DNA of 64,000 nucleotides, taken from the NCBI RefSeq assembly GCF_000720455.1, contig NZ_JOAK01000006.1, forward strand, positions 62,001 through 126,000, read 5' to 3'. The position numbers were made by a program, and so were the translations under genes. This DNA comes from Streptomyces virginiae (lineage in GTDB: Bacteria > Actinomycetota > Actinomycetes > Streptomycetales > Streptomycetaceae). How positions within the stretch are numbered: position 1 is the first letter of the stretch; every line of letters begins with the position of its first letter. Of the stretch, positions 16,013 to 61,407 are shown one piece after another. The notes beneath the pieces were generated by a model. The model was not told the origin of the DNA. It ran no database searches and worked only from the letters and a program-made list of their open reading frames with translations.

Positions 16013-16057
16013 GCACAATTCGCGCCGGGAGTGTCACGCCCCGTTCCCCGCCGTCGC

Positions 16058-17881: not shown

Positions 17882-17959
17882 GTCACTCCCAGTGGCGCCG
17901 ACCGTCCCCGGACGGCGCTGTGCCGCGCGCTCGCGCGGCACATAGACGACAGTTACCGC

Positions 17960-17983
17960 GAATCATGATTCCCCCAAAAGGGG
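17960..17983. promoter_or_regulatory. Palindrome and hairpin in the VanW/kinase divergent region
   Basis: GAATCATGATTC (17960-17971) is a perfect 12-bp palindrome, unusually AT-rich for this genome. It is followed at once by CCCC-AAAA-GGGG (17972-17983), which can fold into a short hairpin. They lie upstream of the VanW gene on the minus strand. An operator is the simplest reading. The rest of the 331-bp region (17882-18212) shows no coding sequence. Confidence 0.45.
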
Positions 17984-18173
17984 CAATTGAGGGATGAATG
18001 TAACGATTCTCACGATGCAGCCGCGCCGGGTCCCGGAGGGCCGCCCCCTGTCGGCGCGGCCGGGACGGCCGGGGGCTGCCCACCCCGTGGCGCAGGGTGG
18101 TCCGCCACCCGGTATGGAGCGCCAACTCAGCTGCCCACCAGGCTCGTTGCCCTCTTCGGATCATCGGGATAGA

Positions 18174-18191
18174 TTTCCGGAAACTGTTTCC
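18174..18191 (+). promoter_or_regulatory. Overlapping palindromes upstream of kinase gene
   Basis: TTTCCGGAAA (18174-18183) and GGAAAC-T-GTTTCC (18179-18191) overlap, about 20 bp before the kinase GTG at 18213. Their position near or just after the expected transcription start suggests a repressor site. No clear -35/-10 pair was identified. Confidence 0.4.
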
Positions 18192-18212
18192 GATGCAGGC
18201 GGGGAAGGCTAC

Positions 18213-20075
18213 GTGTCAGAGCTGGCGGGGAGCGGGGCCGAGCCGCTGGAGGCGGAGGATCCGCTTCGGATCGGACCGATCCCCCTGGCGGGGCGGCTCG
18301 GGGCCGGCGGCATGGGGCGGGTGTACCTCGGAGTCCAGGACGGCCGGTACGTCGCCGTCAAGCAGCTCCTGTCCTCCGTCGTCGCCGAGGACGCGGACTT
18401 CCTGCGCCGCTTCGGGCACGAGCTGGACAACCTCGCCCGGCTGCCCGCCGACGCCACCGCGCCGCTGCTGGCCAGCGACCGCGGGGCGAAGCCGCCGTGG
18501 TTCGCCACCGCCTACATCCCCGGGATCACCCTGCGGGAGGCCATCACGCTGCACGGGGGTCCGCTGCCCGGGGACGCGCTGTGGCTGCTGCTGCGGGAGG
18601 CGGCGTCGAGCCTGGCCGCGGTGCACGCGCTGGACATGGTGCACCGCGACCTCAAGCCCTCGAACGTGATGCTGACCCTGGACGGGCTGACGCTCATCGA
18701 CTTCGGTGTCGCCCGGGCCGCCGAACAGAGCCAGCTGACCAGGACCGGCATGGTCGTGGGCACTCCCGCCTACATGGCCCCCGAGCAGGCCTCGGGGAAG
18801 CGGCGGCTGAGCGGCGCCACCGACGTCTTCGCGCTGGGGTCGGTCCTGGCGTACGCGGCGTGCGGCCGGCCGCCCTTCGGGGACGAGTCGGGGCATGGCG
18901 TGCTGTACCGCATCGTCCACGAGGAACCCGACCTGGAGCCGCTGCGGGAGCTGGAGCCTGAGCTGGCCGCGCTCGTCGAGGCCTGCCTCGCCAAGGATCC
19001 GGACGACCGCCCCACGGCGCCGGAACTCCTTGAGCGCGCCTCCCGGCAGGGCCCCTTCACGCAGCCGCTGTGGCCGGCGGCCATCGACGAGCGCCTGACC
19101 GAACGGGCCGCCTTCGCCGCCGATGTGCAGGACATCGACGTGCCCACGCTCCCGCTCGCCGGCGAGAAGGCAGGGGCGGAAGAAGCGGGGAAGGGGGAGG
19201 CCGCGGCTCGCGGGCCCGAGCCCGCGCCGGCCGTCGGGTCCCTCCCGGACGGACCCGAACGGCGCGAGCGGCGCCGCCGGACCCGTGTCCTCCTCGCGGT
19301 CCTCCCCGTCGTCGTCGTGTCCGGCGGCACGACACTCGCCATCCAGCACCTGCCGCACTCCTCCTCGCCGCGGGCCGAGGCACAGCACACCCCGACGGCT
19401 CCCGTGACGGCCCCGGCCGACCCGGCGTCGGTGGCCGGCGGCAGCCCGTCCGGTACGTCTGCGGCCGTACAGCCGCCGGCCCAGGACCCCGGGCAGGCGC
19501 AGGGCGCCACGGGCGGCGCCCCGGTCACGGCGGTGGGCGGCAACGGTCCCAGCGCGGGCCCGGGGCCCGGCGGCGGCGCCCCACCGGGCCCGGGCGGCTC
19601 CGGAAGCTCGGCGAACGCGGGCGGCGGCGGCAACGACGGCGGATCCCGCCCGTCCGCCGGGGGGACCTCGACGGCCCCCACCAAGGCCCCGGCGCAGCCC
19701 CCCTCGCCCCCCGACTCCGGCACCTACCGCTACCGCAACGGCAACAACGGCAAGTGCATCACCCAGGTCTTCGGATCCTCGGACTTCGGCGACTGCGCGA
19801 ACGGTTCCGCCCGCTGGACCGTACAGAGCAGGTCGGACGGGAGCTTCAAGCTCGTCAACCAGCAGAGTGGAAGCTGCCTCTACTCCAACGGTCTCGGCCA
19901 GGCCGTCTTCGTCGGCGACTGCGCCCAGGACATCGGCCGTGTGTGGCGCACGGGCTCGGGCGGCGCCCTGCGCAGCGACCTCGGCGGCGGCTGCCTCGAC
20001 CTCGGCATGAGCAGCGGCCTGGTGACGAAGACCTGCGGCGGGGAGGCGTCCCAGCGCTGGACGAAGCAGTCCTAG
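18213..20075 (+). CDS. Transmembrane Ser/Thr protein kinase with ricin-type lectin domain
   Basis: 620 residues. The kinase domain spans about 15-270: GRLGAGGMGRVYLG, VAVKQLL, catalytic loop HRDLKPSNV, DFG, and GTPAYMAPEQ in the activation segment. A transmembrane helix at about 357-378 (VLLAVLPVVVVSGGTTLAIQ) is followed by a long Pro/Gly/Ser/Ala linker and an extracellular beta-trefoil domain (about 505-620) with RICIN QxW-like positions (ARWTV, RVWRT, QRWTK) and paired cysteines (KCITQ, DCANG, SCLYS, DCAQD, CLDLG, TCGG). The layout is that of a PASTA-type receptor kinase with a sugar-binding sensor instead. GTG 18213 is preceded by GGGGAAGG; a longer reading from 17994 adds unrelated sequence. 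Confidence 0.9.
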   Translation: MSELAGSGAEPLEAEDPLRIGPIPLAGRLGAGGMGRVYLGVQDGRYVAVKQLLSSVVAEDADFLRRFGHELDNLARLPADATAPLLASDRGAKPPWFATAYIPGITLREAITLHGGPLPGDALWLLLREAASSLAAVHALDMVHRDLKPSNVMLTLDGLTLIDFGVARAAEQSQLTRTGMVVGTPAYMAPEQASGKRRLSGATDVFALGSVLAYAACGRPPFGDESGHGVLYRIVHEEPDLEPLRELEPELAALVEACLAKDPDDRPTAPELLERASRQGPFTQPLWPAAIDERLTERAAFAADVQDIDVPTLPLAGEKAGAEEAGKGEAAARGPEPAPAVGSLPDGPERRERRRRTRVLLAVLPVVVVSGGTTLAIQHLPHSSSPRAEAQHTPTAPVTAPADPASVAGGSPSGTSAAVQPPAQDPGQAQGATGGAPVTAVGGNGPSAGPGPGGGAPPGPGGSGSSANAGGGGNDGGSRPSAGGTSTAPTKAPAQPPSPPDSGTYRYRNGNNGKCITQVFGSSDFGDCANGSARWTVQSRSDGSFKLVNQQSGSCLYSNGLGQAVFVGDCAQDIGRVWRTGSGGALRSDLGGGCLDLGMSSGLVTKTCGGEASQRWTKQS

Positions 20076-20078
20076 GTC

Positions 20079-20143
20079 GTGTCCGCAAAGTCCCGCCTGC
20101 GCGGCGCCCGCCCTCCGGGCGGCCGACGCTACCTTGCGGACAC
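20079..20143. terminator. Long hairpin after the kinase gene; dispersed-repeat end
   Basis: GTGTCCGCAA (20079-20088) pairs with TTGCGGACAC (20134-20143), enclosing an inner GC hairpin (CCGCCC/GGGCGG type). It begins four bases after the kinase stop and probably ends transcription. Its right end, read on the minus strand, is TAGGGAGTGTCCGC, which recurs exactly at 62871-62884, so it may be a small dispersed element and not only a terminator. Confidence 0.55.
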
Positions 20144-20268
20144 TCCCTAAGGGCGGGCACCGCCGGCTGCCCGGCCGACGCGCCCGGGGCCGTGGCCGAT
20201 GGTTCGTCAAGATCGACGGGATGGCACACTGGCCGACCGGACGGCGAACCGAGAGGGCGGACACCATC

Positions 20269-20772
20269 GTGCGAAGGCATCGGGGGCGCGCAGCCCTGGC
20301 GTCCCTGGTCATGGCGGCGCTGATGACGGCGACGGTCTCCGCCTGCGGCACCGCGCTGCAGGACCTCGGGCCGCTGCCCCCGCGCTTCTCGGGTCCGCCG
20401 CTGCCGGCGGACACGGTGGTCTCGGAGATGACGTCGGCCCTCGCGGCGGAGGGCGTCACGGTGACGCGGCAGCCCTCGGGCGCCCCGGGCCGGTGCACCG
20501 AGCAGTTGTCGGGCCGGCATGCCCCCGCGACGGTGGACTCCGCCCTCAAGGCCGCCTTCGCGCGGGCCCGTTCCGACTACGGCTGGCAGGCCGGCCCCGA
20601 CCTCGGCAGCGGCACGCTCACCCTCACGAAGGGCAACTGGACCGTTCTGGCGAGCTTCCCGGCCCCGGAGCCGGCGCAGGGCATCCAGGCCATGGTGGTG
20701 ATGTCCCTGACCTGCCTGGACGCGGGCGGCTCCACCCCCACCCCGACGCTCGCCCCCACCCCGGGCACGTAG
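20269..20772 (+). CDS. Putative lipoprotein
   Basis: A 167-residue exported protein with a clear lipoprotein signal: basic start (RRHRGR), hydrophobic stretch and lipobox VSAC at about residues 23-26. The mature part has two further cysteines (PGRCTEQ and SLTCLD) and a Thr/Pro-rich tail (STPTPTLAPTPGT). No family was recognised. GTG 20269 is preceded by GAGAGGG at about 11 bases; longer readings place the signal sequence internally and are unlikely. It is convergent with the repeat protein at 20819. Confidence 0.75.
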   Translation: MRRHRGRAALASLVMAALMTATVSACGTALQDLGPLPPRFSGPPLPADTVVSEMTSALAAEGVTVTRQPSGAPGRCTEQLSGRHAPATVDSALKAAFARARSDYGWQAGPDLGSGTLTLTKGNWTVLASFPAPEPAQGIQAMVVMSLTCLDAGGSTPTPTLAPTPGT

Positions 20773-20808
20773 GGGGCGCCGGTGCGGGCCGCTCCGGAAA
20801 GGCGCCCC
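20773..20808. terminator. Hairpin between convergent genes
   Basis: GGGGCGCC (20773-20780) and GGCGCCCC (20801-20808) form an 8-bp perfect stem around a 20-nt loop, exactly between the stop codons of two convergent genes. A bidirectional terminator without a U-tract is likely, as is usual in Streptomyces. Confidence 0.5.
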
Positions 20809-20818
20809 GGACGCGGCG

Positions 20819-21289
20819 TCAGAAGGCCCGCAGGAGGTACTTGGTGCGGAAGCCGCCGCTGGTGGAGCAGTCGAGGGTGCTCTGCGTGCTCGTGTAGGTG
20901 AAGCCCGAGGGGACGGTGCACGCCCACAGACCGGTCTTCGGGGTGCGCAGTAAGTACTTGGTGCGGAAGCCGCCGCCCGTCGAGCAGTCGAGGGTGTTCT
21001 GGGTGGAGGAGTAGGTGAACCCGTCGCCCAGGGTGCAGGCCCACAGCCCGTCGGCGGGCGGCTGGACGAAGTAGTAGGTGCGGAAGCCGCTGTCCCCGCA
21101 GTTGAGGGTTTGCTGGGTGGAGGTGAAGGTGTAGCCGGGCGGGACGGTACAGGACCAGAACCCGGCAGCCGCGGCCGTGGCCCCGGGCGCCGGTGAGGCG
21201 GACGCGGTGGCGGGGGCGAGGGCGGTGGCCAGCAGGACGGCCGCGCTGCCGCCACAGAGCAGCAGCGTACGCAGTTTCGATCGGATCAC
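20819..21289 (-). CDS. Secreted protein with three 36-37-residue Cys repeats
   Basis: 156 residues. A signal peptide (about 1-33; VIRSKLRTLLLCGGSAAVLLA, cleavage near ASA) precedes three tandem repeats of the form GxWxCTxxxGFTYxSTQxTLDCSxxGGFRTKYLL, ending ...LRAF. Each repeat has two cysteines about 20 residues apart, so each is probably a small disulfide-closed unit; repeats 2 and 3 are nearly identical and repeat 1 (YTFTSTQQTLNCGD) is diverged. GTG 21289 has AGGAG eight bases upstream, which decides the start. I do not recognise the family; cell-surface or extracellular location is inferred. Confidence 0.75.
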   Translation of the reverse strand: MIRSKLRTLLLCGGSAAVLLATALAPATASASPAPGATAAAAGFWSCTVPPGYTFTSTQQTLNCGDSGFRTYYFVQPPADGLWACTLGDGFTYSSTQNTLDCSTGGGFRTKYLLRTPKTGLWACTVPSGFTYTSTQSTLDCSTSGGFRTKYLLRAF

Positions 21290-21520
21290 GGGATGCACTC
21301 CTGGCTCGTTGTTCACCGGACGGAACCGTGCGACGGGAGGTGCCGGGATCTGCTCCGCTCCGGACCTCCGCGGGGCGCGCGCTGAATGCTGGCAGCCGCA
21401 TAGTCCCCGGGCAAGGGCGGCCCGGCCCCTCCCCACCGACTTCCGGCCGCCTCGGACGAGCCTGTGACCTGCACGATCGCCGAGGTGAGGTGGCGGGCGG
21501 GAGCGCAACGCGACCGGAAA

Positions 21521-22843
21521 CTACACGGGCAGGGGCGGGAGGGGCGCCTCGTACAGCCAGGCCGAGTACAGGTCGTCCAGCGGATCGGCAGCGTAGCGTG
21601 CGGCGTGGGCGGTGAAGGCGGCGGTGCTCACCACGCCGTGACGGTGCACGGTGGCCCAGTCGCGCAGCATGCGGAAGAAGGCCTCGTCACCGAGGGCGCG
21701 GCGGATCGCGTGGACGGCGAGGCCGCCGCGCTGGTAGAGGCGGTCGTCGAACATCAGCTTCCGGCCGGGGTCGACCAGCCGCAGGTCCTGCGGCCGGGCG
21801 TTCAGCGACCGGTGCGCGGCTGCCGCCTGCTCGTGTGCGGTGCGGCCGCCGGAGCGCTCCGACCAGAGCCATTCGGCGTACTTCGCGAAGCCTTCGTTGA
21901 GCCAGATGTGGCGCCAGTCGGCGATGGTCACGCTGTTGCCGAACCACTGGTGCGCGAGTTCGTGGGCGATGAGGCGCTCCGAGCCGCGTACGCCGTCCAC
22001 GTGGTTGGCCCCGAAGAGGGAGAGCCCCTGCGCCTCCACCGGCACGTCCAGTTCCTCGTCGGCGACGACGACCGCGTACTCGCCGAAGGGGTAGGGGCCG
22101 AAGAGTTCCTCGAAGAGCTGCATCATGGCGGGCTGCCGGGCGAAGTCCCGGGCGAACCGCGGGAGCAGGTGGGCGGGCACGTGGGCGCTCTGCGTCACGC
22201 CGCCGAGCCCCGGGTCGCCCAGGAGCACCGTCTGGTACATGCCGATGGCCAGGCCGACCAGGTAGCTGGAGGTCGGCGCGGGCTGCTCGTACACCCAGGT
22301 GGTGGTGCTGGCGCGGGTGGTCCGGGTGAGCAGCCGGCCGCCGGCCACGACCGTGTAGGCGGACGGCGTGTTGACGGAGATCTGGTAGGAGGCCTTGTCG
22401 GCGGGGCGGTCGTTGCAGGGGTACCAGGAGGGAGCGCCGACCGGCTGGCTGGCCACGAGGGCGCCGTCGGTCAGTTCCTCCCAGCCGAGGCCGCCCCAGG
22501 GGCTGCGCACCGGCTTGGGGTTGCCCGACCACTGCACGTCGACGGTGAAGGCGGCTCCGGCCGGCAGCGGTTTGGCCGGCCGGATGCGGAGCCTGCCGCC
22601 GCGGTGCGTGTACTGCGGCGCCCGCCCGTTGACGAGGACTCGGCCCAGCTTGAAATCGGCCAGGTTCAGGTGGAACTCGGTGAGCGGTGCCCGGCCGGCG
22701 ATCGCGCTGAGGCGGCCCGTTCCGGCCAGCCGGTTGGGGGCGGGACGGTAGTCCAGGGCGATCTCGTACCGGTGCACGCGGTATCGGGCGTCCCCGTTGG
22801 CCGGAAAATACGGGTCCGATACCGCTGTGGTCTGGCCGCTCAC
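21521..22843 (-). CDS. M1-family zinc metallopeptidase
   Basis: A 440-residue gluzincin of the aminopeptidase N/LTA4-hydrolase family. The zinc site is HELAHQW at 294-300 with the third ligand in NEGFAKYAE (Glu317); the exopeptidase loop reads EAQGLSLFGAN in place of GAMEN. The N-terminal beta domain is present, but the C-terminal helical domain is very short, so it is the compact form of the family. No signal peptide is evident, so it is probably cytoplasmic. GTG 22843 follows a GGGAGCGG stretch. It lies 94 bp downstream of the Pls-like synthetase on the same strand. A zinc aminopeptidase is reported to degrade epsilon-poly-lysine in S. albulus, so a role in turnover of the neighbouring product is a reasonable inference. 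Confidence 0.88.
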   Translation of the reverse strand: MSGQTTAVSDPYFPANGDARYRVHRYEIALDYRPAPNRLAGTGRLSAIAGRAPLTEFHLNLADFKLGRVLVNGRAPQYTHRGGRLRIRPAKPLPAGAAFTVDVQWSGNPKPVRSPWGGLGWEELTDGALVASQPVGAPSWYPCNDRPADKASYQISVNTPSAYTVVAGGRLLTRTTRASTTTWVYEQPAPTSSYLVGLAIGMYQTVLLGDPGLGGVTQSAHVPAHLLPRFARDFARQPAMMQLFEELFGPYPFGEYAVVVADEELDVPVEAQGLSLFGANHVDGVRGSERLIAHELAHQWFGNSVTIADWRHIWLNEGFAKYAEWLWSERSGGRTAHEQAAAAHRSLNARPQDLRLVDPGRKLMFDDRLYQRGGLAVHAIRRALGDEAFFRMLRDWATVHRHGVVSTAAFTAHAARYAADPLDDLYSAWLYEAPLPPLPV

Positions 22844-22937
22844 TGCCGCTTCCGCTCCCTGCGCCGTGCTCGTACGACGTGCTGGTGTGCCCCTGCCGTG
22901 CCTGCTGCCGCTTCCGTCCGGCCGGCGCCACCGCCTC

Positions 22938-25900
22938 TCAGGACCGCCACGCCTCGATCGGATTGCCCAGCCAGCGGGTGTCGGCGGGGACGGACTCCCC
23001 GGCCATCACGAGGGAGGCGGGGCCCAGGGTGCTGCGCGCCCCGACCGTGCTGCCGGGCAGGACGATTCCGCCCGGGCCCAGGGTGGCGCCCTCGCGGAGG
23101 ATCACAGTATCCGTCCTCAAGATCCGGTCGTGGAAGAGGTGTGTCTGCAACACACAGCCGCGGTTCACGCTGACCCCGTCGCCCAGTGTGACCAGGTCGG
23201 TCTCGGGCAGCCAGTAGCTCTCGCACCACACGCCGCGGCCGATCCGGGCGCCGAGCCCGCGCAGCCACAGGGCCATCAGCGGTGTCCCGGGCACCGATCC
23301 GGCCAGCCAGGGCACGGCCAGTACCTCGACGAAGGTGTCGGCGAGCTCGTTGCGCCAGACGAAGCCGCTCCACAGCGGGTGCTCGCCGGGCCGGTGCCGG
23401 CCCACCAGCAGCCACTTCGCGGTGACCGCAGCACAGCAGGCGGCCGTTCCGGCAGCCAGCAGGACGGCTCCGGACAGCAGCGCCGCGCCCCAGACGCCCA
23501 GGCCGCTCCACGCGGTCAGCGCGCACAGGGCCGCCACGGCGAGCACGGCCAGCGCCGCCGAGCAGAACACGGGCAGGAGCCGGCACAGCTCCACCAGGCC
23601 GCGGGCCCACAGCAGGTGCGCGGGCGGGTCGTAGGTCCGGCTGTGGTCGGCGTCGGCGGCCGACCGGGGCAGTTTGACCGGGGGCAGGCCCAGGTAGGAG
23701 CTGCCCTTCTTGGCCTTCTTCGGGGCGGCGGACAGCACGCCGACCAGCCCGTCGTCCGGCACGGTGCGGCCGGGAGCGGCCATGCCGGAGTTGCCGAGGA
23801 AGGCTCGGCGGCCGATCGCGGAGTGCCCGATCCGTACCCAGCCGCCGCCCAGTTCGAAGGGGGCGGTAAGGGTGTCGTCGGCGAGGAACGCGCCTTCGCC
23901 CACCGTGGTGAGGCTCGGCAGCGCCAGTACGGTGGACACCTCGGCCCCGCGGCCGATCTTCATGCCGAGCAGGCGCAGCCAGACCGGTGTGATCAGCCCG
24001 GCGTAGAGCGGGAAGAGGGTCTCCCGGGCGAGGTCCATGAGCTGGGTGACCGTCCAGGCCTGCCAACCGGTCCGGCTGTGCGTGGGATGGTTCCCGGCGC
24101 GCAGGCCGAGGCTCAGCAGGCGTACGGAGACCAGCAGCAACAGCGCGTAGGCGAGGCCGAAGGCGAGCGCCGCGGGCACCACGGCGACCAGGGCTCCGCG
24201 CAGGGCGTCGACGAGCCCGGCGTCCGCGGGCACGAACCGGCTGAGCACGAGCAGGGCGGGCACGGTGGCGAGGACGGGCAGCACCGTGAGGCAGAAGCCG
24301 GTGGTCCCGTACATGGCGCGCCAGTGGACCGCGCGCGGGGGGCGTTCGCCGGGCCAGTTGCGTTTCGCCTTGCCGAGTTTGCGGGCGGGAGCGCCGGCCC
24401 AGCGCTGGCCGGTCGGGACGGTCCCGACCACGGCGGAGCCGGGGGCGACCTCGGCCCGCTTGCCGATCCGCGCGCCGGGGAAGAGCACGCTGCGGGTGCC
24501 GACCACGGCTCCCGCGCCGATCCTGACGGGCCCGATCTCGAGCTGGTCCCCGTCCAGCCAGTGTCCGGAGAGGTCGACCTCGGCCTCCACGGCGCAGCCG
24601 CGGCCGAGCTTGAGCATGCCGGTGACCGGGGGCAGCGCGTAGAGGTCCACCTCGGGGCCGACCTTGGCGCCGAGCGCCCGGGCGTAGCGTTCCAGCCAGG
24701 ATCCGGTCAGGGAGGTCGCGCCCGCGTACTCGGCCAGTCGCTCGGCGGTCCAGAGCCTGAGGTGCACGCTGCCGCCGCGCGGGTGTCGTCCGGCCTGGAC
24801 CCCGCGCAGGAGCAGGCGGGCGCCGCCGGCGGCGATGGCGAGGCGCCCCGGGGGGCTGAAGAGCATGACGGCGCCCGAGGCGACGAGCCACCAGGACGCG
24901 GACGGCGCCCACGGGTACGGCCCGAACCAGTGCAGTACGTTGCCGAGCGCCAGCAGCGCGACCGTCCAGCGCAGGCCGAGCACGGTGAGCAGGGGCAGCA
25001 GCAGGAGGGACTGGACGGCTTGGGAGCGCAGGGGCACCGGTGCGACGGGGCGTGCCGTGCCCGCGTCCGGTACGGACTTCTCCAGGCGGCGGGCCAGCTT
25101 GCGCAGGGTGGGCTGCTGGTAGATGTCGAGCACGGCCGCGCTCGGGTAGCGGGTGCGCAGCCGGGTGGTGAGCTGGGCGGCGGCGAGGCTGTTGCCGCCG
25201 ATCGCGAAGAAGTCGTCGGAGGCGCTGGTGACGGCCGCGCCGAGGATCTCCCGCCACTGCTCGGCGAGCCAGGCCTCGGTGCCGTGGAGCTCTTCGGAGG
25301 GGCCTGCGGTCTCCAGGCCGGGCAGCGGCCAGGGCAGGGCGTCGCGGTCCACCTTGCCGGAGGTGCGGGTGGGCAGTTCGGTGACGGGGGCGAGGAGGGG
25401 TACGAGGGCCGCGGGCAGTTCGGCGCGCAGGCGTTCGACGGCCGCGGCCCGGTCCCAGCCGTCCTGGGTGACGAGGTAGCCGACGAGCAGCTGGTTGCCG
25501 CTGCGTGCGGTGCGGACGGCGGCGGCGGCGCCCGCCACGTGCGGGAGGGCCTGGAGGGCGGCGTCGACCTCGCCCAGTTCGATGCGGCGGCCGCCGAGTT
25601 TGATCTGCTCGTCGGCGCGGCCGAGGAAGACGAGTCCTTCCGGCTCCGCGCGGACGAGGTCGCCGCTGCGGTAGGCGCGCTGCCAGCCGAGGGAGGCGAG
25701 GGGGGCGTACTTCTCGGCGTCCTTGTCGGGGTCGAGGTAGCGGGCCAGGCCGACGCCGCCGATGACGAGTTCGCCGCTGCCGCCCATCGGGACCGGGTCG
25801 CCGGCCCCGTCGACGACGGCGAGTTCCCAGCCGCCCAGCGGGAGGCCGATGCGGACGGGTTCTCCGCCGGTCAGTAGTGCGGCGCAGGCGACGACGGTGG

Positions 25901-26876
25901 CTTCGGTGGGGCCGTAGGTGTTCCAGACCTCGCGGCCCTCGGTGACCAGCCGCTGGGTCAGTTCGGGCGGGCAGGCCTCGCCGCCGAAGATGAGCAGCCG
26001 GACCTCGCCGAGGGCTTCGGGCTCCCACAGGGCGGCCAGGGTGGGGACCGTGGAGACGACGGTGATCTCCTGTTCGACCAGCCAGGGGCCGAGGTCGGCG
26101 CCGCTGCGGACCTGGCTGCGCGGGACGGGCACGAGGCAGGCGCCGTAGCGCCAGGCCAGCCACATCTCTTCGCAGGAGGCGTCGAAGGCGACGGACAGGC
26201 CGGCCATGACCCGGTCGCCGGGTCCGATCGGTTCCTCGGCGAGGAAGAGCGCGGCTTCGGCGTCGACGAAGGCGGCGGCGCTGCGGTGGGTGACGGCGAC
26301 GCCCTTGGGCTTGCCGGTGGAGCCGGAGGTGAAGATGATCCACGCGTCGTGGTCGGGGGTGGGGCGGGCGGAGCGGTCGCCGCCGGGGCCGATGGCGCCC
26401 CTGACGTCGATGTGCGGTCCGGCGCCGACCACGGCCCGTACTCCGGCCTCGCCGAAGACGAGGTCGGCGCGTTCGTCCGGGTCCTCGGCGTCGACGGGCA
26501 CGTAGGCGGCGCCCGCGGCGAGGACGGCGAGGATCGCCACGTACAGCTCGTTGGTGCCGGAGGGGACGCGTACGCCGACCCGGTCGCCGGCGCCGATCCC
26601 GGCGGCGGCGAGGGCGCGGCGGCCGCGGTCGACCTCGGCGGCCAGGGCGCGGTAGGTGAGGCGGGTGGTGCCGTCGTCGAGGGCGGGTTCGTCGGGGTGG
26701 GCCCGTACGGAGGCTTCGAGGATGTCGACGAGGGTGCGGGGCGGGGCTGCGGGCCCGGCGGTGAAACGGGCGGCCTTGCCGGTCTCCTCGTGCGTTGCCG
26801 TTGCTCCGTCGGTGGCCTTGTAGGTGCCTCGGTCGTCGAGGAGAGCGAGTTCAGTGCGTTCGGGTGTGGCTGGCAT
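22938..26876 (-). CDS. pls: Pls/PosA-family poly-amino-acid synthetase (poly-L-lysine synthetase-like)
   Basis: A 1312-residue membrane NRPS with the layout of epsilon-poly-L-lysine synthetase. Adenylation domain at about 45-515 (A3 FTSGSTGKPKG at 183-193, A4 FDASCEEM near 231, A5 NTYGPTEAT near 319, A10 TSGKVDR with Lys508). Carrier domain with phosphopantetheine site GGNSL (Ser563). Then six transmembrane helices in three pairs separate three tandem soluble hexapeptide-repeat-like domains (GRGCAVEAEVDLSG, GRGAEVSTVLALPS, GRGVWCESYWLPETD). There is no condensation or thioesterase domain; in this family the C-terminal domains make the isopeptide bonds. The hand-read specificity code D-A-E-S-I-G-T-V-V-K resembles lysine codes. 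ATG 26876 chosen; 26915 is possible. Confidence 0.92.
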   Translation of the reverse strand: MPATPERTELALLDDRGTYKATDGATATHEETGKAARFTAGPAAPPRTLVDILEASVRAHPDEPALDDGTTRLTYRALAAEVDRGRRALAAAGIGAGDRVGVRVPSGTNELYVAILAVLAAGAAYVPVDAEDPDERADLVFGEAGVRAVVGAGPHIDVRGAIGPGGDRSARPTPDHDAWIIFTSGSTGKPKGVAVTHRSAAAFVDAEAALFLAEEPIGPGDRVMAGLSVAFDASCEEMWLAWRYGACLVPVPRSQVRSGADLGPWLVEQEITVVSTVPTLAALWEPEALGEVRLLIFGGEACPPELTQRLVTEGREVWNTYGPTEATVVACAALLTGGEPVRIGLPLGGWELAVVDGAGDPVPMGGSGELVIGGVGLARYLDPDKDAEKYAPLASLGWQRAYRSGDLVRAEPEGLVFLGRADEQIKLGGRRIELGEVDAALQALPHVAGAAAAVRTARSGNQLLVGYLVTQDGWDRAAAVERLRAELPAALVPLLAPVTELPTRTSGKVDRDALPWPLPGLETAGPSEELHGTEAWLAEQWREILGAAVTSASDDFFAIGGNSLAAAQLTTRLRTRYPSAAVLDIYQQPTLRKLARRLEKSVPDAGTARPVAPVPLRSQAVQSLLLLPLLTVLGLRWTVALLALGNVLHWFGPYPWAPSASWWLVASGAVMLFSPPGRLAIAAGGARLLLRGVQAGRHPRGGSVHLRLWTAERLAEYAGATSLTGSWLERYARALGAKVGPEVDLYALPPVTGMLKLGRGCAVEAEVDLSGHWLDGDQLEIGPVRIGAGAVVGTRSVLFPGARIGKRAEVAPGSAVVGTVPTGQRWAGAPARKLGKAKRNWPGERPPRAVHWRAMYGTTGFCLTVLPVLATVPALLVLSRFVPADAGLVDALRGALVAVVPAALAFGLAYALLLLVSVRLLSLGLRAGNHPTHSRTGWQAWTVTQLMDLARETLFPLYAGLITPVWLRLLGMKIGRGAEVSTVLALPSLTTVGEGAFLADDTLTAPFELGGGWVRIGHSAIGRRAFLGNSGMAAPGRTVPDDGLVGVLSAAPKKAKKGSSYLGLPPVKLPRSAADADHSRTYDPPAHLLWARGLVELCRLLPVFCSAALAVLAVAALCALTAWSGLGVWGAALLSGAVLLAAGTAACCAAVTAKWLLVGRHRPGEHPLWSGFVWRNELADTFVEVLAVPWLAGSVPGTPLMALWLRGLGARIGRGVWCESYWLPETDLVTLGDGVSVNRGCVLQTHLFHDRILRTDTVILREGATLGPGGIVLPGSTVGARSTLGPASLVMAGESVPADTRWLGNPIEAWRS

Positions 26877-27070
26877 CGGCCCTCGCGTGTCGTTCCGGCA
26901 AATGGTCCGGTTCATCGGCTGAGACCTGATTCACCCCGTTTGTTCCGGTCTGTAGCCGAACAACCCACCAGCCTAGTGCGCGGTCAAGGATTTTCTCGTT
27001 GAAGCTTCGGGTGTGGCCGGTTGGCGACGTTTCGCGGGCCGCCCTGGACCGGGGGCGTCCGGTTCTCGGT

Positions 27071-27553
27071 TCAGTTCTCGACCGTGTAGCGGATCCGAGC
27101 CCACAGCGGCAGGGCGAACCAGCACAGGAGGTACCAGGCCAGCACCCCCGCCACCAGCCACGGAACGAGGGCGTCGTGGGTGGCCACCCGCAGGACGAGG
27201 AAGAGCGCCGCCGTGCACGTGGCCAGCAGCAGGACCAGGCCGGTGAAGGTCAGGCGCGAGGCCCAGGCCACGGCCTCGGGCTTGATCTGCCGGCCGGAGA
27301 CTATGCGGTGGAAGGCGACGGGTCCGATGAGCGCGCCGGTTGCCAGGGAGCCGAGGACGATGGTGACGATGTAGATGGTCTGGTCCGTCTGGGGGAGCTC
27401 GTGGAAGAGGGGCGTGAAGACCACGGTGAGGAGGAAACCGAAGAGGATCTGCACGCCCGTCTGGGCGACGCGGATCTCCTGGATCAGCTCCTGCCACTGC
27501 CGGTCGGCGCGCTCCTGCGTGCTCTCGTCGCGTCCCTCGGTGGTGCCCGTCAT
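27071..27553 (-). CDS. DUF6328 family four-helix membrane protein
   Basis: A 160-residue integral membrane protein. After a soluble N-terminus (about 1-30) come four hydrophobic helices at about 37-57 (VQILFGFLLTVVFTPLF), 64-86, 103-128 and 133-155. The loop HELPQTDQTIYIVT and HRIVSGRQIKPE are typical of DUF6328, a family of unknown function found in actinomycetes. ATG 27553 is well placed behind GGGAG. It lies 61 bp downstream of a HAD phosphatase on the same strand and may share its transcript. Confidence 0.82.
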   Translation of the reverse strand: MTGTTEGRDESTQERADRQWQELIQEIRVAQTGVQILFGFLLTVVFTPLFHELPQTDQTIYIVTIVLGSLATGALIGPVAFHRIVSGRQIKPEAVAWASRLTFTGLVLLLATCTAALFLVLRVATHDALVPWLVAGVLAWYLLCWFALPLWARIRYTVEN

Positions 27554-27614
27554 GCTTTCTCCCTTGTTTTCGTGTGGCCCGGGGCGCCCCGCCCCGGCGC
27601 ACCGGCCGGAGTCA

Positions 27615-28295
27615 CTACTTCCCACCTTCGCCCGACCCGTCGGCGAAGGGGCTGTCGTCGAGGCCGGCCAGCAGGTCCGCCGGGTGCCGGTAGACGGCGC
27701 GCGCCCCGGCCTCCTCCAGGTCCCGCCGGGGGATCCCGCCGCTGAGCAGTCCCACGCAGACCACGTCGGCCCGTGTCGCGGCCTTCATGTCCCAGACGGT
27801 GTCGCCCACGAACACGGCGTCCCGCGCGGCCGCGCCGGCGAGTTCGAGGGCATGGTGCACCGGATCGGGCGCCGGCTTGCCCCGGCTGACGTCGTCGGAA
27901 CTTGCGGTCGCGGTGATGGCGTCGTCGGCGCCGATGGCGCCCCTCAGCGCGGTGAGTTCGGCCTCGCTCGCGGACGTGACCAGGACGACCCGCCAGCCCC
28001 GGCGGTCGAGCTCGCGCAACAGGTCGGCGGCGCGGTCGAGACCGGGCAGCCGGTCGAACCAGGTGGCGTACAGCGTGTCGTGGGCCGCGGTGAGCCGCTC
28101 GTCCCCGCCGCGGTCGCGGTCGTCCCCCAGCAGGTGGGCGAGGAGGTCCTCGCCCGGCAGGCCGATGGCGCGGTGGATGTCGTGCATCGCCACGTCGTGG
28201 CCCGCCTGCCGGAGTGCCTCCCACCAGCACGTGACGTGCAGGTGGTTGGTGTCGGCGAGGGTCCCGTCGACATCGAACAGAGCGGCGCGGTTCAT
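27615..28295 (-). CDS. HAD-superfamily phosphatase (phosphoglycolate phosphatase-like)
   Basis: A 226-residue hydrolase with all four HAD motifs: FDVDGTLADT (nucleophile Asp8, acid Asp10), VTSASE (motif II), Lys in SRGKPAPDP (motif III) and FVGDTVWDMKAA (motif IV). The cap after the first motif is helical (subclass I), like phosphoglycolate phosphatase or beta-phosphoglucomutase. ATG 28295 follows GGGAGGCGG. It is divergent from the nucleotidyltransferase operon and upstream of the DUF6328 gene. The substrate is unknown. Confidence 0.88.
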   Translation of the reverse strand: MNRAALFDVDGTLADTNHLHVTCWWEALRQAGHDVAMHDIHRAIGLPGEDLLAHLLGDDRDRGGDERLTAAHDTLYATWFDRLPGLDRAADLLRELDRRGWRVVLVTSASEAELTALRGAIGADDAITATASSDDVSRGKPAPDPVHHALELAGAAARDAVFVGDTVWDMKAATRADVVCVGLLSGGIPRRDLEEAGARAVYRHPADLLAGLDDSPFADGSGEGGK

Positions 28296-28495
28296 CTTCC
28301 GCCTCCCTACGGATCGGTGGCCGGGACCGTGCGGGGACGTCGGTGCCCCCGCCTCGTACGGCGCCTACCCCAGGCGTCCCCGGCCACTCGCCCGGGCCCC
28401 GCGCCGGGGTTTCGGCGGCGTCGGACGGGTTAGGTGCCTGCCGTCAGCGCGCGGATCCCGGCCCGTCCTGCCGGATCGAACGAGCGAGGTCCTCC

Positions 28496-29149
28496 GTGAA
28501 CAAGCCTCCGGCCGACGCCTCCGGCGGGGTCCCTCCCGCGGAGGCCCTGAGTCCGCCCACCATGACCGACGGCCGGCTCCCCGAGGACCACACCCAGGCG
28601 ATCCTGCAGGTCACCAAACGTGTCGCGGCGCTGCTGAAGCAGTCGGGGCAGCCGTTCGCGCTCGCCGGCAGCGTGGCCGCCTTCGCCCACGGCGTCCCGG
28701 CCCGGTTCCAGCACGACACGGACTTCTGCATGCGCCGCGAGGACGCCGACGCGGCGATCGAGGCACTGGAGGCCGGCGGCATCGAGATGCGCCGGGCCGC
28801 GGAGGACTGGCTGGTCAAAGGCCGTACGGGCGGGGAGGAGATCGACCTGATCTTCGAGCTCGCCCGGCGGCCGGTCAGTACGGAGCTGCTGGAGCGGGCA
28901 CCGGTGAAGTCGGTGGACTCGGTGTGGATGCCGGTCCTCTCCCCCACCGACCTGATGGACAGCCTCCTCGCCGCCCTGTCCGAGCACTACTGCGACTTCG
29001 GAGACCTGCTGCCGATGGCCCGGATGCTGCGCGAGCAGATCGACTGGGGCCGGCTGGACGGCGTACACCGGGACTCCCCGCTGCCCGACGCCTTCCTGTA
29101 CCTCCTCGACCGGCTCCGGGTCATCGACCGGGGGAAGGGGACCTCATGA
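28496..29149 (+). CDS. Nucleotidyltransferase-fold protein
   Basis: A 217-residue soluble protein of the pol-beta-like nucleotidyltransferase fold. Core motif: LAGSVAAFAHG followed by FQHDTDFCM (GS then DxD) at about 57-80, and a third acidic strand EEIDLIFEL at about 120. This resembles AbiEii/MNT-like or aminoglycoside-type NTases, which transfer NMP to a protein, RNA or small molecule. The start is GTG 28496 behind GAGGT; an ATG 22 codons in (28562) is an alternative. It is the first gene of a tightly coupled operon: its stop overlaps the next start (ATGA at 29146-29149). A weak GTTT-N14-GGGTTA sequence (28409-28432) upstream may be a stress promoter. Confidence 0.75.
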   Translation: MNKPPADASGGVPPAEALSPPTMTDGRLPEDHTQAILQVTKRVAALLKQSGQPFALAGSVAAFAHGVPARFQHDTDFCMRREDADAAIEALEAGGIEMRRAAEDWLVKGRTGGEEIDLIFELARRPVSTELLERAPVKSVDSVWMPVLSPTDLMDSLLAALSEHYCDFGDLLPMARMLREQIDWGRLDGVHRDSPLPDAFLYLLDRLRVIDRGKGTS

Positions 29150-29400
29150 CTTCCGTCGAGAACTTCGACTACCGCGTGGAGCACCTGCGCGACCGCCTGG
29201 CGCGCGAGGACATCGCCGAGCTGGGCGTACGCGTGGAGGCGCGCGGCGCGTGGGTGATGGTCTGGGGCGTCGTCAACGACGCCGCTTCCCGGGCGGCCGT
29301 GCTGCGGATCGTCGCGGAGGAACTGCAGGGCGTGCCCTGGCACGAGGACCTGACCGTGCACCGGGTCGGGCCGCCCGGAGCGGCGGAGGTGCTGTCGTGA
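29146..29400 (+). CDS. Small BON-like domain protein
   Basis: 84 residues, no signal peptide. The alpha-beta pattern LRDRLAREDIAELGVRVEAR, AWVMVWGVVNDAASRAAV and WHEDLTVHRV fits a BON-type fold, in which a short helix precedes strands carrying a G-V turn. BON domains usually bind phospholipids or act as interaction modules. It overlaps the nucleotidyltransferase upstream by 4 bp (ATGA) and the metallophosphoesterase downstream by 4 bp (GTGA), so all three should be translationally coupled. Assignment of the fold is tentative. Confidence 0.7.
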   Translation: MTSVENFDYRVEHLRDRLAREDIAELGVRVEARGAWVMVWGVVNDAASRAAVLRIVAEELQGVPWHEDLTVHRVGPPGAAEVLS

Positions 29401-30128
29401 TCCGCATCGCGGCCGTCGGGGACATCCACCTCGGACCGGACAGCGCCGGCTCCCTGCGGCCGGCCTTCGACACGCTCGGTGACTGCGCGGACATGCTGCT
29501 GCTGGCCGGTGACCTCACCCGGCACGGCACCCGCGAGGAGGCCCGGGTGGTGGCCGCCGAGGTCGCCGGACTGCCCGTGCCCGTGGTCGCCGTCCTCGGC
29601 AACCACGACTACCAGAGCGACACGCCGGACCTCGTGGCCCGTGAACTGGCGGAGGAAGGCGTCCACGTCCTGGAGGGTGACTGCGTCACCTTCGACATCC
29701 GGGGCGTCACCGTGGGGATCGCGGGGACGAAGGGCTTCGGCGGGGGTTTCGCGGGCCGCAGCGCCACGGAGTTCGGGGAACCGGAGATGAAGGCCTTCAT
29801 CCGGTACTCCCGGGCGTGCGCGGACGGGCTGGGCCGCACGCTGCGCGAGCTGGACGCCCGGGGCAGCGGACTGCGCGTGGCCCTCACCCACTTCTCGCCC
29901 GTACCGGACACCCTGGCAGGTGAACCGCTGGAGATCTACCCCTTCCTCGGCAGCTACCTGCTGGCGGAGGCCATCGACGGGGCCGGGGCGGACCTCGCGG
30001 TCCACGGGCACGCGCACCTCGGCACGGAACACGGAATGACGGGCGGCGGGGTGCGCGTACGCAACGTCGCCATGCCCGTCATCGACCGCGCCTTCGCCGT
30101 GTACCACCTCTCCCCGACATCCGGCTGA
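29397..30128 (+). CDS. Calcineurin-like metallophosphoesterase
   Basis: A 243-residue cytoplasmic phosphoesterase with the complete dimetal signature: GDIHLG near 9, GDLTRHG near 38, GNHDYQSD near 68, an ALTHFSP histidine near 160, and HGHAHLG near 202. The family cleaves phosphomonoesters, phosphodiesters or nucleotides, and the substrate cannot be read. The GTG start at 29397 overlaps the stop of the BON-like gene (GTGA). As the last gene of the NTase/BON/phosphoesterase operon it could reverse or process whatever the nucleotidyltransferase makes, which is inference. Confidence 0.88.
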   Translation: MIRIAAVGDIHLGPDSAGSLRPAFDTLGDCADMLLLAGDLTRHGTREEARVVAAEVAGLPVPVVAVLGNHDYQSDTPDLVARELAEEGVHVLEGDCVTFDIRGVTVGIAGTKGFGGGFAGRSATEFGEPEMKAFIRYSRACADGLGRTLRELDARGSGLRVALTHFSPVPDTLAGEPLEIYPFLGSYLLAEAIDGAGADLAVHGHAHLGTEHGMTGGGVRVRNVAMPVIDRAFAVYHLSPTSG

Positions 30129-30140
30129 GTGGCGCGGAAA

Positions 30141-30165
30141 GGGTCAGGGCGCCGCGATCGGGTAT
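30141..30165 (+). promoter_or_regulatory. SigB-type promoter upstream of the sigma-factor gene
   Basis: GGGT (30141-30144), 15 bases, then GGGTAT (30160-30165) fits the Streptomyces SigB-family consensus as I recall it (GNNT-N14-16-GGGTAY). It lies 71 bp before the sigma-factor ATG, suggesting autoregulation or control by a related stress sigma factor. Confidence 0.5.
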
Positions 30166-30236
30166 ATAACCGAACGGGAAACCCACGACGGCCCCGCTGC
30201 GCCCCGCGCAGCCCCCCGACCCGTCGGAGGAAACTG

Positions 30237-32794: not shown

Positions 32795-35044
<2,250 letters not shown>

Positions 35045-55433: not shown

Positions 55434-55607
55434 CGGCGATGCTCCCTTCCGGCACCGTCGGCCCGGCGGCCACCCGCCCCGGGCCGTTCCGGCCCCCCGT
55501 TCGGGGCGGTCCGGGCCGGTCCGAGGCGCACGGTTACCTCTCATCGTCCCCCCGAAACCGCCGGGAAGCGTCCCGAGCGGGCGTGACCGGGCCCCGCCAC
55601 GACCGCG

Positions 55608-55619
55608 TAGGCTCGGCGG
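55608..55619 (+). promoter_or_regulatory. Leaderless -10 box before Sua5/YciO gene
   Basis: TAGGCT (55608-55613) is six bases from ATG 55620. GTGACC (55583-55588) lies 19 bases further upstream as a possible weak -35. There is no Shine-Dalgarno. Confidence 0.45.
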
Positions 55620-56245: not shown

Positions 56246-58399
<2,154 letters not shown>

Positions 58400-58405
58400 C
58401 GGCCG

Positions 58406-60565
58406 CTATCCCGCCGCGGGGTCGGCGGCCGGGCCCACGTAGCGGATCCGGCCGCCTTCCACCCGGTGGAGGAAGTAGGTGTTGCCCTTGACCGTTCGGT
58501 CCTCGCCGAAGGCGTACTCCTTGGTCAGGCCGCGGAAGGTGCCCTGCGCGAGGGCGGTCAGCAGTTCGGCGCGGGCCGGGCGGCCGCCGCCGCGGGCCGC
58601 CGTGACGAGCCGGTCGATGACCAGGCCGGCCGCGTCGTAGGCCTCCGCCGTCCACACGTCGGGCGCGGTGCCGTACGCCGCCTGGTGCGCGCGGGCCAGC
58701 TCGGCGGTCTCGGGGGCTTCCGGGCCGGTGTACGGGGCGACGAACTGCCAGCCCTCTGCGGCCGGGCCCGCCGCGGCGAGGAAGTCCGGGCCCATGGAGA
58801 CGTAGTCGGCGGCCCGGTGCCCCCGGTAGCCGGCGGCGGCCAGCACGGTGGCGGTCCTGGCCGCGCCCTGCGGGGTGCCGGAGTAGAAGAAGGCGTCGAC
58901 GCCGTGCGCGAGCATGTCGGTGACGACCGGCGAGAGGTCCTGGGTGCCGCGCGGGACGACCCGCGGGTAGACGGTGGCTCCGGGGACGAAGCCGGCGATG
59001 GTGCGGCTCGCGTTCAGGATCGCCTGCCAGCCCTCTCCGTCGCCGTCCCGGTCGCACAGGACGCCCAGCCTGCTCACCCCCTGCTGGCGGGCCAGCGCCT
59101 TGTTGAGGGCCGAGCCCTGGATGAAGGAGATGGGGCCGAGCTGGAAGAAGCTGCGGCGGTCGGCGACGCTGAAGGCGCTCGCCAGGGCCGAGACGGTGAG
59201 CAGGGGCAGGGCCGCCTCTCCGTACAGTTCCAGGCAGGGGGTGACCGTGGCGTTGCCGGTCGGGCCGATCACGGCGAGCACGTCCGGGTTCGAGATGAGG
59301 CCGGTGGCGGCGGCCGGGGCGCGGTCGGCCGCGCCCGCGTCGTCGGCGGTGGCGACGGTGAGCGTGAAGGGTTTGTCCTTGCGGGAGTTGAAGGCGTCGA
59401 CGGCGAGCCGCACCCCGCGTTCCTGTGCCAGTCCGGCGGCCTTCTGCGGGCCGGAGAGGTCGGCCTGTACGCCGATCACCCACGCCCGGGGTGCGGCGGC
59501 CGGTGTGCCCCCGGGGTCGTCGTCCTCGCGCAGGGCCAGCCAGGTGGCGGTGCCGCCGCCGATGGCGAGTACGGCGCCGGCGGCGAAGCCGAGGAAACGC
59601 CTGCGGGACGGCGCCGCGCCGGTGCTGCCGGGTGCGGGGGCGGCCTTGGGGTCGGCGACGGTCTCCTCGATGCCGGGCAGGGCCAGCAGGGCGGCGGCCC
59701 GTTCGGCGATCGTGGCGACGACCGGGTCGGGCAGCCAGTCGGTGCCCTCGCCCGGGGTGTCCTCGGTGAGGGCCTCGTCGAGCCCGGCCGCGGTGGGGCG
59801 GACGTCGGGGTGCTTGGCCAGGCAGGTCCGCAGCAGGCCGGTGAGTTCGGGGTCGGCGAGGAGTTCCGGGCCGAGGTCGGGCTCGTCGTGGACGGTGCGG
59901 TAGAGCACGGCCTCCACGGTACCGGCGCCGAAGGGCAGCCGGCCGGTGGCGGCGTACGCGAGGAGGCAGCCGAGGGAGAAGACGTCGCCGGACGGTTCGG
60001 CGGGGCGGCCCTCCGCCTGCTCGGGCGGGATGAAGCCGGGGGTGCCGAGGACGGCGTCCGCTGAGGTCAGGGCGGTGTGCTCGCCGCCGCGGGCGATGCC
60101 GAAGTCGATGAGCCGGGGCCGGTCCATGCCGAGGAGTACGTTGCCGGGTTTGACGTCGCGGTGGACCAGGCCCTGCGCGTGCATCACCTGAAGGGCTTTG
60201 GCCAAGGCCTTGCCGAGGATCCGTACGGCGCGCAGCGGGAGCGGCCCGTGGGCGGAGACGGCCTCGGCCAGGGAGGGGCCGGCGACGAAGGAGGTGGCCA
60301 GCCACGGTTCGCGGGCGTCGGGGTCGGCGCCGGTGATCCGTACGGCCCACGGGGTGTCGACCTCGGCGGCGATCTCGGCCTCGCGGCGGAAACGGGCCCG
60401 GAAGTCGGCCTCTTCGGCGTACTCGGCGCGGATGACCTTGACGGCGGCGAGCGCGCCGTCGTCGGTGCGGCCGAGGTAGACGACGCCCATGCCGCCGGCA
60501 CCGAGCCGTCCGAGGAGGCGGTGGCCGCCGATCCGGGACGGGTCCGAGGGGTGCAGCTGTTCCAT
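58406..60565 (-). CDS. Ser/Thr kinase fused to amino-acid-type binding protein (2)
   Basis: 719 residues, a paralogue of the downstream gene. Kinase (about 12-265): GRLGAGGMGVVYLG, AAVKVIRAE, HRDVKPGNV, DFG and GTPGFIPPEQ. Transmembrane segment at about 322-342 (FLGFAAGAVLAIGGGTATWL), then a Peripla_BP_6-like domain (about 358-710; GVQADLSGPQKAAGLAQERG, AVIGPTGNATVTPCLELYGE, LLTVSALASAF, DAFFYSGTPQGAARTATVL, VWTAEAYDAAGLVIDRL). The two copies differ enough in the binding domain to suggest different ligands. ATG 60565 overlaps the stop of the lipoprotein gene upstream by one base (TGATG). Confidence 0.92.
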   Translation of the reverse strand: MEQLHPSDPSRIGGHRLLGRLGAGGMGVVYLGRTDDGALAAVKVIRAEYAEEADFRARFRREAEIAAEVDTPWAVRITGADPDAREPWLATSFVAGPSLAEAVSAHGPLPLRAVRILGKALAKALQVMHAQGLVHRDVKPGNVLLGMDRPRLIDFGIARGGEHTALTSADAVLGTPGFIPPEQAEGRPAEPSGDVFSLGCLLAYAATGRLPFGAGTVEAVLYRTVHDEPDLGPELLADPELTGLLRTCLAKHPDVRPTAAGLDEALTEDTPGEGTDWLPDPVVATIAERAAALLALPGIEETVADPKAAPAPGSTGAAPSRRRFLGFAAGAVLAIGGGTATWLALREDDDPGGTPAAAPRAWVIGVQADLSGPQKAAGLAQERGVRLAVDAFNSRKDKPFTLTVATADDAGAADRAPAAATGLISNPDVLAVIGPTGNATVTPCLELYGEAALPLLTVSALASAFSVADRRSFFQLGPISFIQGSALNKALARQQGVSRLGVLCDRDGDGEGWQAILNASRTIAGFVPGATVYPRVVPRGTQDLSPVVTDMLAHGVDAFFYSGTPQGAARTATVLAAAGYRGHRAADYVSMGPDFLAAAGPAAEGWQFVAPYTGPEAPETAELARAHQAAYGTAPDVWTAEAYDAAGLVIDRLVTAARGGGRPARAELLTALAQGTFRGLTKEYAFGEDRTVKGNTYFLHRVEGGRIRYVGPAADPAAG

Positions 60566-61407
60566 CAGCCGGCCGCCTTTCCGAGCGCCTGCTTGGCCTG
60601 CGCGATCATGCGGCTGTTGCCCTGCACGACGAGCTGGGTGAGGGTCTCCTGCTTGAAGCCCTCGGCACCCTTGCCGGCGATGGCCACCGTGACGGGGCCG
60701 AACTGCGCCTGGTACCAGAAGTAGCGCTGGGGTTCGCCGCCCTGGGGGCCGACGTACGTGCCGAACTCGCTGAAGGCGTCCTCGCTCCAGTTGTTCATCT
60801 GTTCGCCCTGGTGGTTCGCGGTGCCCAGGAGTCCCTTGAGGTCCTCGCCCTCGCGCAGCTTCTGGTCGGGGCAGCGCACGACCTCCTCCATGGCGCGGGC
60901 GGTCTCCCAGCCCGATTCCGCCCGGTTGTGGTGGACGGTCACCGTGGCGTTGATCCGGACGCGGCCGTGGCCGTTCCCGGCCGGGACCTCGAAGTAGCGG
61001 GTGTTGGTGGCGAGTACGTCCTGCGGCAGGTCGCTGGTCTGCCACACGCACTTCTCGTCGAGCACGGGCCAGCGACCGGGCCGGCTCTCGAACGGGGTGC
61101 GGCGCACGACGTCCGGGCCGAAGGCGTCCTCGACGATGACGATCCGGTCGAGCAGCGCCCGGGCCTCGGCGGCCGTCTTCGGCTGCTTGGACTCGTCCAG
61201 CTCCGGTACGAGGGAGACGGCCGAGGCCCCGGGTGAGGGCGCAGCGGTGGTCGCGGGCGGTGCGGATGAGGCCGCTGACGCGGCCGGGGCGCGGCTCGTC
61301 GCCTCGCCTTCCGCCGTTCCGCCGACCGTACAGCCGGCCATGACCATGATGAACAAGCCTGTCGCCGCGCAGCCGCAGGCGCGCAGCGCGACATCACGTC
61401 GTGTCAC
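60565..61407 (-). CDS. Putative lipoprotein, first gene of the kinase operon
   Basis: A 280-residue exported protein. The signal sequence (about 1-24; RRDVALRACGCAATGLFIMVMAGC) ends in the lipobox MAGC, followed by a low-complexity Ala/Ser/Pro linker to about 60. The mature domain (DESKQPKTAAEARALLDRIVIVEDAFG, WPVLDEKCVWQ, RINATVTVHHNRAESGW, AIAGKGAEGF) has no family I recognise but looks like a PknH-sensor/LpqN-sized ligand domain. GTG 61407 has a GGGGGG run as ribosome site; GTG 61419 is the alternative. It is translationally linked to the two kinases and could modulate them at the membrane. Confidence 0.8.
   Translation of the reverse strand: MTRRDVALRACGCAATGLFIMVMAGCTVGGTAEGEATSRAPAASAASSAPPATTAAPSPGASAVSLVPELDESKQPKTAAEARALLDRIVIVEDAFGPDVVRRTPFESRPGRWPVLDEKCVWQTSDLPQDVLATNTRYFEVPAGNGHGRVRINATVTVHHNRAESGWETARAMEEVVRCPDQKLREGEDLKGLLGTANHQGEQMNNWSEDAFSEFGTYVGPQGGEPQRYFWYQAQFGPVTVAIAGKGAEGFKQETLTQLVVQGNSRMIAQAKQALGKAAG

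Follow-up and report, generated by a model that had tools for sequence, protein, structure and literature searches.

A lysine-type Pls synthetase gene of Streptomyces virginiae and its adjoining M1 peptidase gene

The 64,000-nucleotide stretch of Streptomyces virginiae DNA analysed here (contig NZ_JOAK01000006.1, positions 62,001 to 126,000; hereafter "the window") carries, on its reverse strand, a gene for a Pls-type synthetase followed by a gene for an M1 zinc peptidase. Judged by its sequence, the locus is the known pls–pldII-type operon, ordinary and common, and the pairing of the two genes has already been published (PMC8117764; PMC9223678). We regard it as probable that this operon serves the synthesis of epsilon-poly-L-lysine (epsilon-PL), a polymer with antimicrobial action, and that its peptidase works in the cytoplasm as a clean-up or recycling enzyme. 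This location would set the window apart from Streptomyces albulus, the producer used in industry, whose peptidase PldII is described as lying outside the membrane and as self-protective (PMC9223678; PMC9205021; PMC8117764).

The synthetase and its likely product

Members of the Pls/PosA family combine an adenylation (A) domain, a thiolation (T) domain and a complete TIGR02353 terminal domain scoring above the cut-off, and the window synthetase has all three (PF00501; PF00550; TIGR02353, scoring 841 bits where the cut-off is 423, over positions 2–695 of 695), while the genome as a whole (8.3 Mb, 132 contigs) holds four TIGR02353 matches, one of them above the cut-off. The earlier note, made from the letters of the window, had proposed for this 1312-residue protein the plan of Pls, i.e., A and T domains followed by six helices and three further domains. 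The A, T and full TIGR02353 domains were indeed found, and three transmembrane (TM) pairs and three soluble domains are predicted, an agreement that chance would by no means produce. In an AlphaFold2 model of the last 715 residues, built with an alignment of 32 relatives, the terminal domain (mean pLDDT 84.5, pTM 0.86) shows six long helices, two of them broken, besides short regular strands arranged in three runs, to be read as predictions of six TM helices in three pairs and of three intervening beta-helix domains. Along the C-terminal part, the hydropathy profile shows three hydrophobic sites, in keeping with three TM pairs, with helix 2 of the first pair staying below the threshold used. 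The PDB entries that Foldseek ranks highest are, for the most part, hexapeptide acyltransferases; these matches are local and their whole-model TM-scores low. As predicted, the domain agrees with the published model of PosA, the delta-poly-L-ornithine synthetase of Acinetobacter baumannii, in which TM helices accompany three left-handed beta-helices (PMC10522769). PosA thus shares the family architecture of the window enzyme but differs in its ornithine code, DMEHNGTVSK, and in having, as reported, no obvious cotranscribed neighbour (PMC10522769).

The ten-residue code of the A domain, DAESIGTVVK (residues 245, 246, 249, 288, 309, 311, 333, 341, 342 and 521 of P0001, the 1325-residue open reading frame (ORF) at this locus), begins with the Asp, Ala and Glu of a lysine-type pocket. 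The best PDB match of the domain is 7wew, the A domain of an epsilon-PL synthase, tabulated in PMC11253843 as the Pls_A of S. albulus with Lys-AMP. Alignment to 7wew upheld the code as it had been read by hand in the earlier note. That note had called it close to the lysine code; the lysine type stands, but the reference given there for the comparison, DAESIGSVAK, was wrong, S. albulus having DAESIGTVVK, so that the match is 10/10. The window and 7wew share these ten residues with every lysine-type row of our alignment, which amounts to 149/152 rows (a count that takes in the window along with L081, its own copy, has some genomes under two locus numbers and leaves L170–L183 outside), and the other three rows are non-lysine relatives with different codes.

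Could the substrate be another diamino acid, such as ornithine (Orn), diaminobutyric acid (Dab), diaminopropionic acid (Dap) or beta-lysine? Relatives with other codes do make polymers of all four (PMC10522769). However, code position 2 of the window enzyme is Ala, the lysine state, where PosA has Met, the ornithine state, and the Dap/Dab enzymes have Phe (PMC10522769); the whole code is identical to that of S. albulus Pls; and a Pfam scan of the ten ORFs from 16058 to 31163 found no aminomutase and no Dab or Dap gene. We therefore hold a substrate other than lysine to be very improbable.

Overall, the window synthetase shares 59% identity with the S. albulus-type protein of locus L143, whose A domain is 94% identical to 7wew. 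Activity at greater distance is documented for Corynebacterium variabile, a distant genus with an operon that likewise pairs a lysine-type Pls with a peptidase: its Pls, 51% identical to that of S. albulus, was expressed in S. coelicolor and there gave chains of epsilon-PL 26–35 residues long (PMC8117764). Moreover, S. virginiae IFO12827 is reported both to produce and to degrade epsilon-PL, according to a review (PMC9205021). Because the code is identical to that of 7wew, the C. variabile Pls is active and an S. virginiae producer has been reported, the product of the window synthetase is most likely epsilon-PL.

Split relatives of the family were also encountered. At two loci (L157, 7628–13748; L158, 7034–12151), a protein made of a T domain and a TIGR02353 domain (946 and 919 aa, respectively) lies beside a separate A-T protein with the code DIWQSTAVMK, which in L157 is an A-T-thioesterase protein. 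No M1 gene was found in the 18 kb examined at each of them.

The adjoining peptidase and its export signal

The earlier note had taken the neighbouring gene for an M1 peptidase and had linked it to the poly-lysine-degrading enzyme of S. albulus. The first identification is borne out by matches to PF01433 and PF17900 and by an intact HEXXHX18E motif. As to the link, the gene product is a homologue of PldII (44–48% identical to the 14 peptidases found beside S. albulus-type pls genes), but the export signal of those copies is absent from it. The closest solved M1 sequences, 6a8z and 6iff (474-aa chains), are also short M1 enzymes and align with the window peptidase over residues 6–439, at E = 5e-51 only. 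Its computed isoelectric point was uninformative.

The peptidase gene adjoins the synthetase gene in the same direction, and this arrangement recurs widely. Among the best 80 of 569 matches, a sample biased to close kin, the peptidase gene lies directly downstream of pls in 80/80 named loci. In a survey of 295 Streptomyces genomes, 126 carry a lysine-type A domain and 125 of these a matching M1 gene, as against 0 of the remaining 169 (thresholds chosen by the analyst: E 1e-120 for the A domain and E 1e-95 for M1); these genomes are related, and the Fisher p for the pairing is not to be read literally. A phylum-wide draw of 396 genomes contained 25 with a TIGR02353 match at E 1e-60, for 29 matches in total, of which 22 are of the lysine type (at least 57% identity). 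The M1 gene stands beside 21 of these 22, and the exception, L126, has none in a stretch of 17 kb either (as L156). None was seen in the short flanks of the seven non-lysine-type matches, nor around the three of them whose flanks were extended. At face value, the neighbour might be an ordinary aminopeptidase that merely adjoins pls: M1 peptidases are common, and the genome of the window holds seven further matches to this one at E 1e-5. Nevertheless, the occurrence of the gene in 125/126 genomes with pls and 0/169 without, at the thresholds used, together with its position in all of the named loci, makes a chance neighbour scarcely credible.

The S. albulus operon resembles that of the window in its two genes in the same order, its identical lysine code and its M1 zinc peptidase, and differs from it in the sequence distances given above, in the junction of the two genes and in the N-terminus of the peptidase. 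At the junction, the peptidase start overlaps the pls stop in L143, which is of the S. albulus type, whereas the window lacks this overlap, a trait of PldII by which its translation would be coupled to that of pls, and has instead a 94-nt gap with a ribosome-binding-site-like sequence of its own.

To compare N-termini, S. albulus-type loci were defined by the identity of their A domain to 7wew, which divides the 129 matches of the genus into 16 at 74–94% and 113 at 65–73%. All 16 were examined with their flanks, and an M1 gene is found in 14 of them (not in L150 and L155). Export signals were sought by taking the best 13-residue hydropathy near the N-terminus and by reading the sequences, for 127 M1 rows besides the window (four are duplicates by partial sequence). 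The S. albulus-type rows have a Tat-like (twin-arginine) signal in 14/14 cases, e.g., CSRRALIRGAALLPLAA, with hydropathy values of 1.55–2.38. In contrast, an export signal was found in 0/113 of the M1 rows beside other lysine-type pls genes, with the same outcome in a rescan using another anchor, and the window peptidase, at 0.43, has none either. The scan is able to detect signals, since four M1 paralogues of the window's own genome, which carry hydrophobic N-terminal export signals, score 2.18–2.52. The window peptidase is thus probably cytoplasmic, and among the sequences compared an exported PldII seems to be the less common form. Without an export signal, the self-protection model of S. 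albulus is not simply transferable to the window.

In phylogenetic trees, the S. albulus-type synthetases (nine rows) and the signal-bearing peptidases (eight rows) each form one well-supported group, six S. albulus-type loci being outside these trees, which argues for one evolutionary change rather than many. Three genomes (G145, G242 and G254) hold both types of synthetase, and two of them (G145 and G254) both types of peptidase. The change may have been a loss of the signal in the window's lineage or a gain on the S. albulus side; the four signal-bearing paralogues lean towards a loss, yet these same paralogues also root the tree. Two other scenarios were considered. Loss of the signal through a local frameshift was rejected: no one frame is preserved through the spacer in every relative, L003 being a case that differs, and the peptidases of close relatives share the VSGQ/MSGQ start. 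That the S. albulus-type PldII is a secreted paralogue which replaced the original enzyme is not supported either, for the pls-linked M1 peptidases form a group separate from the four same-genome paralogues (SH-aLRT 97).

Gene coordinates and other features of the window

Table 1. Features of the synthetase–peptidase locus (window positions; minus, reverse strand).
Feature	Position	Strand	Remarks
Conserved promoter-like block, 5' of pls	26987..26959	-	TTGACC...GCACTAG...GGGTTGTT; alignment with six relatives
pls-type synthetase gene	26876..22938	-	1312 aa; A-T-(TM pair + soluble domain) x3; TIGR02353 match
Adenylation domain	26720..25317	-	Best PDB match 7wew; code DAESIGTVVK
Thiolation (carrier) domain	25271..25083	-	PF00550; pantetheine Ser563 of 1312, in GGNSL
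Pls/PosA membrane terminal domain	25016..22956	-	TIGR02353; predicted TM pairs and three beta-helix (hexapeptide acyltransferase-like) segments
Codon TAC of Tyr746 (759 in P0001)	24641..24639	-	His in lysine-type relatives; row alignments
Spacer, pls stop to peptidase start	22937..22844	-	94 nt; GGGAGCGG, like a ribosome-binding site, before GTG
M1 zinc peptidase gene, PldII-like, no export signal	22843..21521	-	440 aa; PF01433 and PF17900
HEXXHX18E zinc motif of the M1 peptidase	21964..21893	-	Residues 294–317; intact

The longest ORF at the synthetase locus, P0001, spans 26915..22938 (minus strand), but the start in Table 1, which gives 1312 aa, is most likely the right one, because relatives conserve a GAGGG site together with an ATG that lies 39 bases inside the ORF (in the alignment of the window with these relatives, the window's own stretch stops at GAGGG) and because P0003, a protein of S. 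virginiae, begins there. P0003 is also the best match to the window synthetase among the best 120 of 7528 matches, at 96% identity. The conserved promoter-like block upstream of the gene may act as the pls promoter.

Elsewhere in the window, two tandem genes (58399..56246 and 61051..58406, minus strand) encode Ser/Thr protein kinases that both carry a fused sensor domain of the periplasmic-binding-protein type (Peripla_BP_6), and a further Ser/Thr kinase (17994–20075, plus strand), with a C-terminal ricin-B-type lectin domain, adjoins a VanW-domain gene (16058–17941, minus strand). The 64 kb also encode three SpoIIE-type phosphatases whose sensors are of the PAS/GAF or Cache kind (7229–9313, 13241–16018 and 53301–56117). 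Finally, there are a phytase-domain gene (36021–37361, minus strand) and a peroxidase-domain gene (32828–35044, plus strand).

Proposed function and its standing

In the operon as we picture it, the A domain would activate L-lysine with ATP and load it onto the T domain. The terminal domain, embedded in the membrane, would link the carboxyl of the lysyl thioester to an epsilon-amine, either that of a lysine or that of the chain being extended, and the polymer would leave the cell. The M1 peptidase, encoded by the next gene and presumably co-transcribed, would hydrolyse epsilon-PL or short chains. In the lineage of the window, this hydrolysis would take place in the cytoplasm rather than outside the membrane, by an enzyme of clean-up and recycling coupled to the synthetase; as a peptidase devoid of a signal cannot act outside unless it is exported in an unusual way, it would find itself on the side of the A and T domains. 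For most Actinobacteria, we judge evenly balanced the chances that the synthetase-linked M1 peptidase is intracellular and, tied to the synthetase, continuously trims and recycles epsilon-PL made or leaked on the inner side, the exported, self-protective PldII of S. albulus, the basis of present views, being the exception.

Several points weigh against this reading, some on the side of the peptidase. The lysine-type pls loci L150, L155 and L156 have no detectable M1 peptidase in 17 kb, which means that the peptidase is not essential; G242, the genome of L150, does hold a peptidase gene next to the second of its pls genes. Moreover, signals were sought by scanning hydropathy and by reading, not with a trained predictor. 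The highest value of the scan outside the S. albulus type is 1.47, for L181, in a stretch read as preceding the start of the protein, and L080 (1.22) and L135 (1.15) come next, L135 being the least clear to read. Non-classical export is also possible. If it occurred, operon and product would be the same, and the peptidase would protect the cell from outside, as the externally located PldII is reported to do in S. albulus (PMC9223678; PMC9205021), of which the window gene is the positional homologue, at the identity given above. Nonetheless, the absence of a signal from 113/113 rows outside the S. albulus type, when four M1 paralogues of the same genome bear clear hydrophobic ones, makes us consider such an export unlikely, although it is the strongest competitor of a cytoplasmic enzyme.

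On the side of the synthetase, epsilon-PL is reported to be undetectable in C. variabile itself (PMC8117764), so that possession of a pls gene does not imply production. Furthermore, Tyr746 of the window breaks an otherwise invariant position of the lysine-type rows examined: in a set of 19 other such rows, 149 columns do not vary, and the window retains 148 of them, Tyr746 being the exception. Over the 152 rows (some genomes again appearing twice), position 746 is His in 143, a gap in seven and Tyr in two, the window and its own copy, which amounts to His in 143/143 of the other lysine-type rows with a residue there. Likewise, among 121 proteins (the window and the best 120 of 7528 matches), 119 have His and two have Tyr, i.e., the window and P0003. 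Hence, the synthetase might be silent or altered in this strain, Tyr746 changing the chain length, the rate or the activity of the terminal domain. Yet, of five non-lysine relatives, four carry a different residue at 746 (the fifth has a gap), so that it is not a family-wide catalytic residue; P0003 shares the Tyr; an S. virginiae strain, which may or may not share it, is reported as an epsilon-PL producer (PMC9205021); and the other invariant columns are all kept. We regard a silent or altered enzyme as improbable. Of two chain-length positions of S. albulus Pls, W646 is conserved in the window, and L883 lies beside a gap and is Val in the window, a weak correspondence for which the numbering was shifted by one from the PDB chain to suit those two letters.

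Finally, a CRISPRi study attributes to the PldII of S. albulus both a self-protective role and an influence on chain length, lengths differing when pldII is repressed (PMC9223678), which also speaks against a mere cytoplasmic recycling enzyme. According to a review, inactivating both degrading enzymes of S. albulus left yield and chain length unchanged (PMC8506220). The reason why an epsilon-PL-degrading enzyme is encoded beside the synthetase is disputed (PMC8506220 versus PMC9223678). A cytoplasmic form of the pls-linked peptidase is not mentioned in the literature searched, which takes in only a minority of subscription journals and does not extend to the first report on PldII (Yamanaka 2010). 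If the common form is indeed cytoplasmic, its role would probably be to protect the cytosol, or else to serve in quality control and in recycling, rather than defence outside the cell, and this would change how producers are engineered.

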